Assembly (NCBI RefSeq): GCF_000949385.2
Contig: NZ_JYKO02000001.1
Span: forward strand, 3,460,648 to 3,524,647
DNA: 64,000 nucleotides
Source: Pseudomonas sp. LFM046
GTDB taxonomy: Bacteria; Pseudomonadota; Gammaproteobacteria; Pseudomonadales; Pseudomonadaceae
Direction: 5' to 3'
Below, in pieces: positions 34,523 through 45,563 of the stretch (positions are counted from its first letter, which is position 1; the number at the start of each line of letters is the position of its first letter). The notes beneath the pieces were generated by a model. The model had not been told where the DNA came from, did no database searches, and saw only the letters and a program-made list of their open reading frames with translations. A program made the translations under genes and the position numbers.

Positions 34523-36901
34523 GTGCGCCGTGCCACCACCCCGTTCCGCCACACCCTTCTGGCCGTGGCCATCAGCCTCGGCAGCCTGTCCGCCCAGGCC
34601 CTGGCTGAAACCTACCACTTGCCATCGGCTCCCCTGGCCAACACGCTCAACCGCATTGCGGTCCAGTCCGGCATTGTCCTCAGCGTCGCCCCCGCCCTGA
34701 CCGCGGGCAGGACCGCGCCCGCCGTGGAAGGTGACTTCAGCCCGCTCCAGGCCCTGTCCCAAGCCCTTCAGGGCAGCAGTCTGCGCCTGGTGCAGAACGG
34801 CGCCGACAGCTACAGCGTGGCACCCGTGACCGACGAGGCGATGAACCTGCCCGAGGTGAACATCGACGGCAGCCGCAGCTATGAAACCGCCTGGGGCCCG
34901 ACCACCGGCATGGTCGCCACCCGCACCGCCGCTGGCACCAAGACCGACACCGCGATCAACGAGATTCCGCGCTCCATTTCGGTGATCACCCGCGACCAGC
35001 TCGACTCTCGCCCCACCCTCAACCTCAACGACTCGCTGCGCTACACCGCCGGCGTGATGAGCAGCGGCTACGGCTCGGACTCCCGCGCCGACTGGCTGAA
35101 AGTTCGCGGTTTCGTGCCGACCCAGTTCCTCGACGGCTTGCCGCTGCCGGTCGGCTCCTTCGCCAACCCGAAGATCGAGCCCTGGAACCTTGAGCGCATC
35201 GCCGTGCTGCGTGGCCCGGCCTCCTCCGTCTATGGCCAGACTCCGCCCGGCGGCCTGCTGGACATGGTCAGCCGCCGCCCCCAGGACGAGCAGGCCAATG
35301 AGGTGGAGCTGCAGGCCGGCAACAACGATCACAAGCAGATCAACTTCGACAGCACCGGCCGCATCGACGACGAGGGCCAGTTTCTCTACCGCGCCAGTGG
35401 CACCGTGCGCGACAGCGACTCGCCCATCGACCACATCCCGGACAAGCGCTACAACATCGCACCGAGCCTGACCTGGAACATCAACGACGACACCCGCTGG
35501 ACCTTCCTCTCGCAGTACACCCGCGACGACACGGGCATCACCGGCCAGTTCCTGCCGCTGCAGGGCACCAAGATCGACTCGCCGTTTGGCGACATCTCCC
35601 ACCACAAGAACCTCGGCGAGCCGGACTGGGACTTCTACGACCGGACCTACTACGCCCTCGGCTATTCCTTCGAGCATCGCTTCAACGATGTCTGGCAATT
35701 CCGCCAGAACCTGCGCTACACCAAGAGCGACCTGGAGTTCCAGGCGGTGAACGTGGCGACCTTCAACACCATCGACGACGAAGGCAACGTCAATCGCGAG
35801 TCCGGCATCGTCGACGAAGACATCAGCCAGTTCGCCCTGGACAACAACTTCCAGGCCGACTTCAGCACCGGCGAACTGGGCCACACCGTTCTGCTGGGCC
35901 TCGACCACCAGCGCGCCAACACCAACTACCGCTGGCTCTATGGCATGGGCGTCCCGCCGATCAACGTCAACGACCCGATCTACGGGGGCGACATGTCCGG
36001 CGTCGAATACCTCACGATGCAGGACTTCAACCAGAAGACCTATCAGACCGGCCTCTACATCCAGGACCAGATCGCCCTGGACAACTGGCGCCTGACCCTC
36101 GGCGGTCGCGAAGACTGGATCCACACCGGCACCACCTTCTTCAACCAGAACGATGCCACCAATACCCAGCGCGACTCGGCCTTCAGCGGCAACGTGGGCC
36201 TCAGCTATCTGTTCGACAATGGCATCACGCCGTACATCTCCTACGCCGAATCCTTCCAGCCAACGATGGGCGCCACCGTCAGCAGCACCGAATCCTTCGA
36301 ACCCACGGAAGGCAAGCAGTACGAAGTCGGGGTCAAATACCAACCGCCGGGCACCGATGCCATGCTGACCGCTGCGGTCTACGACCTGACCCAGACCAAT
36401 GTCAGCGTGACCGAGGGCAGCGTGACCCGGCAGATCGGCGAACTGGATGTACGTGGCCTGGAGCTGGAAGCCATTGCTGACGTCACCGAGAACCTCAAGC
36501 TGGTGGCGTCCTACAGCTACACCGACAGCGAGATCAAGAAAGGTCCGGACAAGGGCAACCGCATGCCCCAGATTCCGCGCAACCAGGCCACCGCCTGGGC
36601 GGATTACACCTGGCACAGTGGCCCGCTGGACGGTTTCGGCGTGGCGGCCGGAGTGCGTTACGTCGGCGACACCTATGGCAATACCGCCAATACCTGGCTG
36701 GGCCACGTGGGTTCCTACACCGTCTACGACGCGTCGGTGCACTACGACCTGGGGCGCCTGAACAGCTCCCTGCGCGGTGTCTCCGTGGCGGTGGACGCGA
36801 AGAACGTGTTCAACAAGGAATACCTGTCCACCTGCGACGGCTACTGGTGCTACTACGGCGACGAACGCAGCGTCGTCGGCAGCCTGAACTACAAGTTCTA
36901 A
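34523..36901 (+). CDS. TonB-dependent siderophore receptor with N-terminal signalling domain
   Basis: This 792-residue outer membrane receptor starts at GTG behind AGGAG. A signal peptide ends at SAQALA. The secretin/TonB short (STN) domain covers about residues 30-95 (YHLPSAPLANTLNRIAVQSG), then a TonB box (LPEVNIDG) and the plug (INEIPRSISVITRDQL, LRGPASSVYGQTPPGG). The beta barrel ends in the C-terminal Phe typical of outer membrane barrels. The STN domain and the sigma/regulator pair before it mark a transducer of the FecA, FpvA or FoxA kind. The siderophore cannot be named from the sequence. Confidence 0.94.
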   Translation: MRRATTPFRHTLLAVAISLGSLSAQALAETYHLPSAPLANTLNRIAVQSGIVLSVAPALTAGRTAPAVEGDFSPLQALSQALQGSSLRLVQNGADSYSVAPVTDEAMNLPEVNIDGSRSYETAWGPTTGMVATRTAAGTKTDTAINEIPRSISVITRDQLDSRPTLNLNDSLRYTAGVMSSGYGSDSRADWLKVRGFVPTQFLDGLPLPVGSFANPKIEPWNLERIAVLRGPASSVYGQTPPGGLLDMVSRRPQDEQANEVELQAGNNDHKQINFDSTGRIDDEGQFLYRASGTVRDSDSPIDHIPDKRYNIAPSLTWNINDDTRWTFLSQYTRDDTGITGQFLPLQGTKIDSPFGDISHHKNLGEPDWDFYDRTYYALGYSFEHRFNDVWQFRQNLRYTKSDLEFQAVNVATFNTIDDEGNVNRESGIVDEDISQFALDNNFQADFSTGELGHTVLLGLDHQRANTNYRWLYGMGVPPINVNDPIYGGDMSGVEYLTMQDFNQKTYQTGLYIQDQIALDNWRLTLGGREDWIHTGTTFFNQNDATNTQRDSAFSGNVGLSYLFDNGITPYISYAESFQPTMGATVSSTESFEPTEGKQYEVGVKYQPPGTDAMLTAAVYDLTQTNVSVTEGSVTRQIGELDVRGLELEAIADVTENLKLVASYSYTDSEIKKGPDKGNRMPQIPRNQATAWADYTWHSGPLDGFGVAAGVRYVGDTYGNTANTWLGHVGSYTVYDASVHYDLGRLNSSLRGVSVAVDAKNVFNKEYLSTCDGYWCYYGDERSVVGSLNYKF

Positions 36902-36961
36902 GCCCCACGCACGACGGAAGAAAGGCCGCCCCGCCGGCGGCCCACTCAACAGGGAATCGCC

Positions 36962-38092
36962 ATGCAAAGCCGCACCATTCGGCGCTGGTCCAAGGTCCAC
37001 ACCTGGAGCAGCCTGATCTGCACCCTCTTCCTGCTGATGCTGGCCCTTACCGGCCTGCCGCTGATCTTTCACCACGAACTGGAGCACCTGCTGGGCGAGG
37101 CGCCGGAGCTGCGGGAGATGGCGCCAGACACGCCGCACCTGGGCCTCCAGCAACTGGTGGACGCTGCCCAGCGCCACCGCCCCGGCGAAGTGGTGCAGTA
37201 CCTGGGCTACGAGACGGACGAGCCCAACGGCGTGATCGCCATCACCGCCGCAACCGCCGGCACCGAACCGAACGCGTCCCACACCTTCATGCTCGACGCC
37301 CGCACCGGCGAATCGGTTGCCATGCCGGCTGCCAACGGCGGCGTGCTGATGTTCATCCTGCGGCTGCACGTGGACCTGTTCGCCGGACTGCCCGGCAAGC
37401 TGCTGCTGGCGTTCATGGGCCTGCTGTTCGTGGTCGCCATCGTCTCGGGCGCAGTGCTCTACGCCCCGTTCATGCGCCGCCTGAAGTTCGCCGAAGTACG
37501 CCACCAGCGCTCCACCCGCACGCGCTGGCTGGACCTGCACAACCTGATTGGCATCGTCACCCTGACCTGGGCCCTGGTGGTGGGCGTGACCGGCGTCATC
37601 AGCGCCTGCGCCGACCTGCTCATCAATGCCTGGCGCCAGGACGCCCTCGCCGCGCTGGTACAGCCCTACCACGACGCCCCGCCGCTGACCGAGCGCGCCC
37701 CGGCGGATCGGGTACTGGATATTGCCGGCGAGGCCCTGCCCGGCATGCAGGCGGACTTCATCGCCTTCCCCGGCACGCGCTTCTCCAGCGCCCATCACTA
37801 CACGGTCTTCATGGTGGGCAGCAGCCATCTGACGGCGCACCTGTGGACGCCGGTGCTGATCGACGCACGCACCCTGGAGGTGACGGCCATCGCCCAGCGT
37901 CCCTGGTACATGGATGCTCTGGCCATGTCCCAGCCGCTCCACTTCGGCGACTACGGCGGAGGGCCGATGCAACTGCTCTGGGCTGCGCTGGACGTTCTCA
38001 CCATCATCGTCCTCGGCAGCGGGCTGTATCTCTGGTGGGTACGGCAGCGGCGCGGTGCCGGAACTCGCGAAGCCGCGGAGGTCCCGGCATGA
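36962..38092 (+). CDS. PepSY-associated membrane protein, likely siderophore-iron reductase
   Basis: This 376-residue protein has four main membrane segments: about residues 15-37, 140-160, 195-215 and 340-362. Conserved His residues near the helices (WSKVHTWSS, LRLHVDLF, WLDLHNLIG) could bind haem, as in PiuB- or FoxB-like proteins. Those relatives reduce iron held by siderophores in the periplasm or help their uptake. It follows the receptor gene by 60 bases. Its stop overlaps the start of a small membrane protein gene in ATGA. Confidence 0.88.
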   Translation: MQSRTIRRWSKVHTWSSLICTLFLLMLALTGLPLIFHHELEHLLGEAPELREMAPDTPHLGLQQLVDAAQRHRPGEVVQYLGYETDEPNGVIAITAATAGTEPNASHTFMLDARTGESVAMPAANGGVLMFILRLHVDLFAGLPGKLLLAFMGLLFVVAIVSGAVLYAPFMRRLKFAEVRHQRSTRTRWLDLHNLIGIVTLTWALVVGVTGVISACADLLINAWRQDALAALVQPYHDAPPLTERAPADRVLDIAGEALPGMQADFIAFPGTRFSSAHHYTVFMVGSSHLTAHLWTPVLIDARTLEVTAIAQRPWYMDALAMSQPLHFGDYGGGPMQLLWAALDVLTIIVLGSGLYLWWVRQRRGAGTREAAEVPA

Positions 38093-38937: not shown

Positions 38938-39861
38938 TCAGGTGTCGTTTTCGGCAAGCGTCGCGCCGAGCTGCGCCAGTTGCTCACGCAGCCAGCGCAG
39001 GCCGGGCGCCAGCTCCTGCTGGCGGTGCCAGATCAGGCTCACCTGCACGGGCGGCGTCGCCACCGGCAGCGGCGCCACCTCCAGCGCGTAGAGGGCCGCG
39101 AAGTGCTTCGCCAGCCGGCGCGGCACGGTGCCCAGCAGGTCGGAGCGCGCCACGATGGGTGGGATCGTCAGGTAGTGGGGAACCTGCAGCCCAGCCTGAC
39201 GCTTGATCTTCGCCGAGCCCAGGACTATCTCCAGCGGCGAGCCGCGACCGGCGCGCGGCAATATCAGCACATGCTGGCTACCCAGGTACCCCTCCAGAGT
39301 GAGGCCACCCGCGAATGCCGGGTGCTCGGCCCGGCCGATCACGACCAGCTCCTCCTCCATCAACGGCTGGTAGCAGAGATCGGGGTTGTCGAAATAGAGG
39401 TAGTCGATGGCCAGGTCCAGCTCGCCAGTGGCCAACCGTGTCATCAGGCTTTGCGCCTCATCGTCCTGTACTTCCAGCGCCACCCGTGGCGCCTCGCGCC
39501 TCAGCTGTTCCAGCAGCGCCGGCAATAGCATGGCCTGGGCGTAGTCGTTCATCGACAGGCGGAAGCAGTGCTCGGCCTCTGGATCGAAGACCTCCTGTGC
39601 CCCCAGCCCGAGCTGCAGCAGCTTCAGGGCCTGGCGCACCGGGCCGTAGAGCACCTGGGCATGAGCGGTGGGCAACATGCCGCGGGCGGTACGCTTGAAC
39701 AACGGCTCGCCCAATTGACTGCGCAGTCGCGCCAGGGCGTTGCTCACCGCAGGCTGACTCATGTGCAGGCGCGTGGCGGCCCGCGACAGGTTCTGTTCCT
39801 GCATCAAGGCATCGAACACCAGCAGCAGGTTCAGGTCGATTCGGCGCAAATTCAGGTTCAT
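38938..39861 (-). CDS. LysR-type transcriptional regulator
   Basis: This 307-residue regulator begins NLNLRRIDLNLLLVFDAL and has the helix-turn-helix LSRAATRLHMSQPAVSNAL. That start places it in the NodD/LeuO-like branch. The C-terminal domain should bind an unknown small molecule. It is divergent from the hydroxylase-SRPBCC gene with 88 bases between the starts, and inverted repeats lie there, so control of that gene is likely. Confidence 0.9.
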   Translation of the reverse strand: MNLNLRRIDLNLLLVFDALMQEQNLSRAATRLHMSQPAVSNALARLRSQLGEPLFKRTARGMLPTAHAQVLYGPVRQALKLLQLGLGAQEVFDPEAEHCFRLSMNDYAQAMLLPALLEQLRREAPRVALEVQDDEAQSLMTRLATGELDLAIDYLYFDNPDLCYQPLMEEELVVIGRAEHPAFAGGLTLEGYLGSQHVLILPRAGRGSPLEIVLGSAKIKRQAGLQVPHYLTIPPIVARSDLLGTVPRRLAKHFAALYALEVAPLPVATPPVQVSLIWHRQQELAPGLRWLREQLAQLGATLAENDT

Positions 39862-39910
39862 GAATAATGCTCATTTCGACTATCCATTATCGGAATAAAA
39901 CATTCATCAC
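39860..39910. promoter_or_regulatory. Candidate LysR operator in the divergent promoter region
   Basis: ATGAATAATG (39860-39869) is mirrored by CATTAT (39885-39890) and ATTCAT (39902-39907). ATTAT-N10-ATTCAT contains the T-N11-A spacing seen in LysR binding sites. It overlaps the start codon of the LysR gene and lies upstream of the divergent gene. Confidence 0.4.
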
Positions 39911-39949
39911 TAGACTTCCTGGTATGTCAACAAGACTGCCGGAGCAGCC

Positions 39950-41089
39950 ATGAGCCACGACACGCAGGCGTTTCGCGACCGCTATCGCGCGGGTATCCAC
40001 CCCCTCTACAACGCCTGGCTGCATGGCGGTTTCGTGCTGCTCTACGGCGCCGCCTGCCTGAGCTTCTTCCTGGGCCGTCTCAACGACGTGCGGCCCTGGG
40101 AATGGCTGGTGGTGCCGGCGGCGCTGATGTTCTTCAGCTGGGGCGAATACACGATCCACAAGAACCTGGGCCACAACAAGACCCGCCTCGGGGCGCTGTT
40201 CTACAAGCGCCACACCGGCGATCACCACAGCTTCTTCGTGGCCGGGCAGATGACCTGGGAATCAGCGCGGGACTGGCGGGTGATTCTCTTTCCGGCGTGG
40301 CTGATCGTCCTGTTCAGTACCGGCCTGTTCCCGGCCTGGTGGCTGCTCTCGTTCATCAACGCGAACGTCGCGGCCCTCTTCGTGACCACGCTGCTGGCGG
40401 GTTATCTGAGCTACGAAGTCTTCCATGCCTGCGAGCACCTTCCTGCCGGCCATCCCATCGCACGCCTGCCCTGGATTCGCCACATGCGCCGGCTCCACGA
40501 GCTGCACCACCGACGCGACCTGATGCAAAGCCGCAACTTCAACCTGGTCTTCCCGCTGATGGACTGCCTCAAGGGCACCCTGCACTGGGAACCCCTGGAA
40601 CAGGAGCGCTCCATGACCCGAATGCAACACTCGGTAGATATCGCCCGCCCTCCGGAACACGTGCTGGCCTACGCGAGCACCGCTACCCGCTGGCCAGAGT
40701 GGCACCCCTCCTCTCTGCAGGTTGAGGGGCCCATCGGCCCGCTGCCGGCCGGGAGCCATTTCGAGGAGGACATCCACGCGGGCGGCCGTTCCGGGCATCT
40801 CAGCTGGGATGTGACCGAGTACAGCCCGGGCCGCCGCTGGCGCGCCACCGCGCACGGTACCCACGGCCTGGGGCTGCTGCTGACCTACGAATGCGAGAAG
40901 ACGGCGAACGGCACCCGCTTTGTCCGCACCCTGGAATACGGCTTCTCCGGCTGGGTCATGCGTTTGGCCAATCGGCTGGTAATGCGCCGCACGATCGACC
41001 GCGAGTCGGTCGAGTCGATGCGGCAACTGAAGGCGATGGCCGAGCAGCACATAGAGGCTGCGTCGCTGCAGCAGCGGGATACGGCCTGA
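39950..41089 (+). CDS. Membrane fatty acid hydroxylase-type protein fused to an SRPBCC domain
   Basis: This 379-residue protein has two parts. Residues 1-220 form a membrane di-iron hydroxylase of the sterol desaturase/fatty acid hydroxylase superfamily. Its His clusters are H70-x4-H75, H88-x3-H92-H93, H159-x3-H163 and H183-x2-H186-H187, set among about four membrane helices. Residues 222-375 form an SRPBCC (START-like) domain with MQHSVDIARPPEHVLAYAST and ATRWPEWHP, a fold that holds hydrophobic ligands. The joint has a Met (residue 222) where a stand-alone SRPBCC protein would start, so a gene fusion is likely. GGAG precedes the ATG. The substrate is unknown; a lipid handed to or from the SRPBCC cavity is an inference. 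Confidence 0.85.
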   Translation: MSHDTQAFRDRYRAGIHPLYNAWLHGGFVLLYGAACLSFFLGRLNDVRPWEWLVVPAALMFFSWGEYTIHKNLGHNKTRLGALFYKRHTGDHHSFFVAGQMTWESARDWRVILFPAWLIVLFSTGLFPAWWLLSFINANVAALFVTTLLAGYLSYEVFHACEHLPAGHPIARLPWIRHMRRLHELHHRRDLMQSRNFNLVFPLMDCLKGTLHWEPLEQERSMTRMQHSVDIARPPEHVLAYASTATRWPEWHPSSLQVEGPIGPLPAGSHFEEDIHAGGRSGHLSWDVTEYSPGRRWRATAHGTHGLGLLLTYECEKTANGTRFVRTLEYGFSGWVMRLANRLVMRRTIDRESVESMRQLKAMAEQHIEAASLQQRDTA

Positions 41090-45058: not shown

Positions 45059-45134
<76 letters not shown>

Positions 45135-45150
45135 GTACAACGTTACAAAG

Positions 45151-45226
45151 TGGCGTCCCCTAGGGGACTCGAACCCCTGTTACCGCCGTGAAAGGGCGGT
45201 GTCCTAGGCCACTAGACGAAGGGGAC
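45151..45226 (-). tRNA. tRNA-Glu (anticodon TTC)
   Basis: The 76-base gene begins GTCCCCTTCGTCTAG, has anticodon TTC in the loop CCTTTCACG, the T arm GTTCGAGTC and an encoded CCA. A 16-base spacer separates it from the Gly gene. Confidence 0.97.
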
Positions 45227-45232
45227 TGAAAT

Positions 45233-45308
<76 letters not shown>

Positions 45309-45396
45309 ATGCAACTTTTACAGTCGGGTTCGTTAGAACCCAGCTCGACGCTTTCGCTTCGAGGCGAACAAGGCCGCCTAGCCTTGCTCTTGAATT

Positions 45397-45472
<76 letters not shown>

Positions 45473-45487
45473 ATACAACTTTGAAAG

Positions 45488-45563
45488 TGGCGTCCCCTAG
45501 GGGACTCGAACCCCTGTTACCGCCGTGAAAGGGCGGTGTCCTAGGCCACTAGACGAAGGGGAC
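45488..45563 (-). tRNA. tRNA-Glu (anticodon TTC), second copy
   Basis: Identical to the other tRNA-Glu gene. It is the first gene of the transcript, about 80 bases after the promoter. Confidence 0.97.

Follow-up and report, generated by a model that had tools for sequence, protein, structure and literature searches.

A probable membrane hydroxylase fused to an SRPBCC domain and its link to the LysR-type regulator BsrA in Pseudomonas

Scs7p, the fatty acid hydroxylase of yeast, carries a cytochrome b5 domain and acts on sphingolipids, and OlsE acts on ornithine lipids. MSMEG_5634 and Rv0910 (PDB 7wa9) are mycobacterial START proteins that bind acyl-AcpM; they are free-standing, without a hydroxylase. 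BsrA (PA2121) of Pseudomonas aeruginosa is a regulator of biofilm and metabolism with 765 bound regions (PMC8407307), and a comparative LysR paper also presents it as a biofilm regulator (PMC10926688). Here we analyze a gene of Pseudomonas sp. LFM046 (39950..41089, plus strand, 379 residues) within a 64,000-nucleotide window of contig NZ_JYKO02000001.1 (positions 3,460,648 to 3,524,647). In one open reading frame it joins a membrane domain of the FA_hydroxylase type to a domain of the SRPBCC (START-like) kind, and it stands divergent to a bsrA orthologue. Where Scs7p has cytochrome b5 as its partner, this protein has SRPBCC, and unlike the mycobacterial START proteins it includes a hydroxylase. 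No description of a hydroxylase-SRPBCC fusion was found in the open-access literature.

The two domains lie in one conserved frame, and the fusion is real. In the whole protein, Pfam places FA_hydroxylase (PF04116) at residues 57-210 (40118..40579, plus strand; 38.6 bits against a cut-off of 31) and Polyketide_cyc2 (PF10604), of the SRPBCC family, at residues 222-365 (40613..41044, plus strand; 80.8 against 27.4); each half scanned separately gave the identical call above its cut-off. The earlier note on this DNA, made from the letters alone, had made both calls from motifs, and both hold, the C-terminal half having clear SRPBCC similarity as well as the fold. Its count of eleven histidines between residues 70 and 187 needs correction: there are twelve, set in the motifs HX4H (70-75), HX3HH (88-93), HX3H (159-163) and HX2HH (183-187), and ten of them (H70, H75, H88, H92, H93, H159, H163, H183, H186 and H187) are invariant in all 36 aligned rows. 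Such conserved histidines are metal ligands, and the motifs are those of the di-metal site of FA_hydroxylase members. A tblastn search with one genome per species confirmed 287 relatives, and in the best 80, kept as named loci (L numbers below) in a sample that favors full-length matches, the joint frame is unbroken in every case, as the note had read it in the window; a sequencing error joining two genes, which it had considered, is thereby ruled out. Among 36 relatives chosen from these loci and the window for a profile scan, Polyketide_cyc2 was found in all and FA_hydroxylase in 34 (E ≤ 0.001). The gene is single copy in its own genome (E ≤ 0.001), and the ratio of nonsynonymous to synonymous substitution rates against seven close relatives runs from 0.12 to 0.17 in the hydroxylase half and from 0.13 to 0.27 in the SRPBCC half.

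Structure matches give the two halves a possible division of labor. A model of the first half has the fold of a solved member of its family, Scs7p (PDB 4zr0, 4zr1), which is its best structural match. By sequence, NCBIfam gave the window's hydroxylase half no family at E ≤ 10, with scattered weak matches for the corresponding part of other proteins. Among solved structures, sequence searches yielded no relative of this half; VapC, which appeared there at E values of 0.55 and 0.75, was taken as chance. For the second half, the best solved matches have the helix-grip fold, and the top one is an acyl-acyl carrier protein (ACP)-binding START protein, ahead by 2.3 in Z. The tryptophan required for acyl-AcpM binding in MSMEG_5634 and Rv0910 aligns with W251, which does not vary across the 36 rows. 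A type II toxin of the Rv0910 kind was rejected as a description of this half, which lies below the NF047960 cut-off; MSMEG_5634 itself is reported not to act as a toxin (PMC9014085).

The protein joins a membrane enzyme that probably hydroxylates a fatty molecule to a pocket domain that probably holds that molecule. Our preferred explanation, which we consider fairly probable, is a non-haem di-iron hydroxylase that is bound to the membrane and brings its own acyl-holding domain; our confidence rose because the fold match of the first half was found, and the likelihoods that we attach to this explanation and to its alternatives are not mutually exclusive. In a plausible mechanism, helices would hold the enzyme in the inner membrane so that both the metal site and the SRPBCC domain face the cytoplasm. 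A long acyl chain, whether free, bound to coenzyme A (CoA) or ACP, or as the tail of a lipid, would enter the SRPBCC pocket and be handed to the metal site for hydroxylation. The reaction and the ligand in this scheme are inferred, as is the inducer of BsrA proposed below. The SRPBCC domain could instead be a second enzyme, of the cyclase, aromatase or hydrolase kind, acting on the hydroxylated product; the fusion would then catalyze two successive steps, and its second domain would not serve to hold the substrate. We think this rather unlikely, since the top structural match is a binding protein and a small sample of 20 proteins profiled in the neighborhood of such genes included no polyketide synthase. 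The SRPBCC domain could also be a sensor module through which the lipid level tunes the hydroxylase, in the way that START-fold receptors answer to their ligands; with no signaling partner indicated by the sequence and no ligand known, this appears decidedly unlikely.

As the earlier note had noticed, a LysR gene lies divergent to the fused gene (38938..39861, minus strand, 307 residues), and its product scores 537.1 bits against the BsrA equivalog NF050187, whose cut-off is 480. With five candidates scored per genome and a threshold of our choice (E ≤ 1e-100), BsrA orthologues were present in 36 of 398 sampled genomes of the family, and all 36 adjoin a fused gene, divergently and 87-132 nucleotides apart by aligned ends. 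The same pair occurs in another family of the class (L178). The converse fails: 46 of the 82 family genomes with the fused gene, including 6 of 14 in the window's genus, have no BsrA orthologue. The regulator link of the fusion is well founded. Since a BsrA orthologue was never seen without the fused gene in the 398 family genomes, this gene is a first place to look for the natural signal of BsrA.

Between the two genes lies a conserved, operator-like block (39862..39898) with a 27-nucleotide core (39863-39889), an inverted repeat formed by ATAATG (39864-39869) and CATTAT (39885-39890), and a direct repeat of GAATAA whose copies are 31 nucleotides apart. A second mirrored pair is ATGAAT (39860-39865) with ATTCAT (39902-39907), and the intergenic repeats include the palindrome TTCATGAA. 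The mirrored repeats had been pointed out before; six-base repeats alone could be chance, but the conserved block around them is not, and it is the real evidence. The 40 loci with the bsrA/fused pair, window included, yield 28 distinct intergenic sequences, which share gaATAAtgCtC.Tt...AaTATCCATTa....aATaA. The core pattern is found with 0-4 mismatches in all 28 of these upstream regions (1 in the window), and has at least 9 mismatches in each of 84 regions from loci without BsrA, fused genes and lone hydroxylases mixed. Of 2000 random 300-nucleotide windows from the named loci, 10 contained a site with at most 4 mismatches, every one being the block itself in a locus with BsrA, and the best site outside the block had 7. 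For a shortened version of the block, the whole genome contains no second site at up to 2 mismatches. In P. aeruginosa, the position of the block agrees with two published results (PMC8407307): a chromatin immunoprecipitation sequencing summit of BsrA, which by our reading of the table lies at -8 relative to the start of bsrA, and a band shift of the bsrA promoter by BsrA. BsrA would bind the block and restrain its own expression; an inducer resembling the substrate or product would let it switch the fused gene on.

No sigma-70 consensus promoter was found between 39800 and 41200. TAGACT (39911..39916, plus strand) may be the -10 element of the fused gene; it occurs in 17 of the 28 intergenic regions. 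If so, the block would be centered near -47, and LysR-type activators usually bind near -47. TAGACT is also present in L085 and L087, two loci of the window's genus that have neither bsrA nor the block, yet retain TCACTAGACT and the sequence leading up to the start codon. In the motif reported for BsrA from systematic evolution of ligands by exponential enrichment (quoted in PMC8407307), part of one half-site looks like TAGAC, but because this stretch stays in the bsrA-less loci we favor a promoter over a BsrA half-site.

The fusion is a widespread Pseudomonas gene, whose few copies elsewhere look transferred. At E ≤ 1e-10, matches occur in 14 of the 18 genus genomes, each match covering both halves, in 117 of 398 sampled genomes of the family and in 10 of 369 genomes sampled from the class. 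A search of the phylum with the alignment (E ≤ 1e-20) matched 14 of 398 genomes, four of them nearly at full length, of which one (G994) lies outside the family. By our own count of the family rows, both halves lie in one stretch in 81 of the 398 genomes and in two pieces in one more (G674); in 24 of the 398, the close relative (58-65% identity) covers no more than residues 1 to about 220. The earlier description of the arrangement as unusual therefore needs softening, the more so as most fused genes lie in another context, without BsrA. In a 49-row tree built from the hydroxylase half, the label fused or unfused changes 4 times, and well-supported branches force at least 2 of these changes; long outgroup branches make the root unsafe, so that gains and losses look alike and a single origin of the fusion is left undecided by this tree. 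Two loci have matches only to C-terminal SRPBCC pieces of 60 and 89 residues (L058 4843-5022 and L057 5037-5291), apparently decayed copies of the fused gene, and the L058 piece adjoins a LysR gene of a second type. In L050 (5014-6209), from a one-contig genome, the fused gene is split over two reading frames by a frameshift or an assembly error. Relatives in which the second domain is fused, separate or missing make a natural model of how a membrane hydroxylase obtains a water-insoluble substrate.

Upstream of the second domain, AGGAG stands 6 nucleotides before the in-frame ATG of Met222 (40602..40615, plus strand), a possible internal start for a free SRPBCC protein. In the window, the pairing energy with the anti-Shine-Dalgarno sequence is -6.6 kcal/mol here and -5.8 at the gene's own start. 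At the internal start it is -7.4 in six close relatives, whose own starts range, with that of the window, from -5.6 to -6.6; it is -4.3 in a seventh relative, -10.3 in L091 and -5.9 in L149, and the other 9 of 19 genes have no good internal start. About 7% of all codon positions reach -6. These pairings make an internal start at Met222 a possibility in some lineages, and they bear on the idea that two neighbors were joined neutrally, SRPBCC being made separately from Met222 and the join having no function. From more than 80 fused genes available, 19 were chosen for examination; in 9 of these the internal pairing is at least as strong as that of the true start, and L056 has the hydroxylase and an SRPBCC gene (the latter only 36% identical) as separate adjacent genes. 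Ten of the 19, however, have no such internal start and the join is kept in all 80 named loci, which leaves a functionless join highly improbable.

The 80 named loci fall into 24 with BsrA, 50 with a second, HdfR-like LysR gene upstream on the same strand, and 6 with neither. A propeller gene of the strictosidine-synthase-like/SMP-30 kind lies directly downstream in 50 of the 80, overlapping the fused gene by 4 nucleotides in 25 loci if its start is that of L098; no such gene adjoins the fused gene of the window. The N-terminus of the L098 protein, with its basic residues and strongly hydrophobic stretch, suggests a membrane anchor with a periplasmic body. BsrA and the propeller gene occur together in L117 (Pseudomonas sp. 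NFIX28), bridging both contexts. In other Pseudomonas, the product of the hydroxylase may be passed to this membrane-anchored hydrolase or lactonase on the periplasmic side. A more elaborate version, in which the START domain loads the metal site with a long acyl chain taken from an acyl carrier, the resulting hydroxy-acyl compound or its lactone acts as a signal and as the inducer of BsrA, the free protein starting at Met222 serves as a shuttle, and the propeller partner of other species processes the lactone in the periplasm, seems to us very unlikely. The window's own genome has one propeller homologue (43%; L163 6073-7134, contig C1 about 1683581-1684636), away from the fused gene and among dihydrodipicolinate-synthase-like and Cys/Met-metabolism genes.

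Behind bsrA, on the same strand, a GT4-type glycosyltransferase gene is found in 16 of the 34 loci with bsrA in the gene table (L070 2838-4016 and 15 further loci). The only member profiled, from L077, resembles glycolipid synthases at 132.7 bits, far below the cut-off of 480. Together with Scs7p as best structural match, this gene suggests that an intact membrane lipid might be hydroxylated, with the SRPBCC domain lifting it from the membrane, a possibility that partly overlaps the acyl-holding explanation. The glycosyltransferase, however, occurs in a single group of loci and is absent next to the bsrA of the window, and no sphingolipid or ornithine-lipid gene was among the neighbors profiled, though no search was aimed at them; we regard an intact lipid as an unlikely substrate.

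P. aeruginosa PA7 (L149) has the same fusion at 67% identity, with a divergent BsrA, also at 67%, and the conserved block with 2 mismatches; L068 is the same sequence. Among 25 genomes of PA7's genus, in which the presence of P. aeruginosa sensu stricto is not established, only PA7's own matches the fused protein. The identification of PA2122 of PAO1, the neighbor of bsrA (PA2121), with this fusion is based on gene numbering and on PA7, not on the PAO1 sequence. A transposon mutant of PA2122 in strain TBCF10839 had an altered colony morphotype (PMC2246019), and PA2122 is listed with the label "lipid biosynthetic process" in a table of a plasma transposon screen (PMC9901815).

Several observations weigh against a hydroxylase with its own acyl-holding domain under the control of BsrA. 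A simple hydropathy threshold is passed by three stretches only (24-44, 111-129 and 132-158), not four; the models are poor around the second His box; and no solved di-iron enzyme, Scs7p included, was found by sequence for the hydroxylase half at E ≤ 10. The second half scores 44.8 bits for the MSMEG_5634/Rv0910 family NF047960, whose cut-off is 100, and MSMEG_5634 is reported not to bind E. coli acyl-ACP (PMC9014085). The hydroxylase survives without SRPBCC in the 24 family genomes that carry it alone, and the propeller gene is downstream in 6 of the 11 lone-hydroxylase loci of the family that were looked at. No electron donor was recognized in the list of open reading frames around the fused gene, which were not profiled. 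The 27-nucleotide pattern was derived from the BsrA-positive sequences themselves, the negatives being the telling part, and the block lies directly against the start codon of bsrA; its conservation might serve the expression of bsrA itself, and it would then be lost together with bsrA anyway. The PAO1 mutant of PA2122 had wild-type colony morphology in the same screen (PMC2246019). Finally, the main text of the BsrA study does not name PA2122 (PMC8407307), so activation of the fused gene by BsrA is inferred. The "dedicated, inducible system" of the earlier note accordingly keeps its first adjective, given the 36 adjoining orthologues, and not its second; overall, that interpretation is partly supported.

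Before bsrA, the window has what we read, by eye and not by profile search, as a TonB-dependent receptor and a PepSY-type membrane protein (34523-38092), and open reading frames similar to this pair precede the fused gene in L085, which has no bsrA. On the other side, on the minus strand at 45059-45563, lies a tandem array of five tRNA genes, three for Gly(gcc) and two for Glu(ttc).
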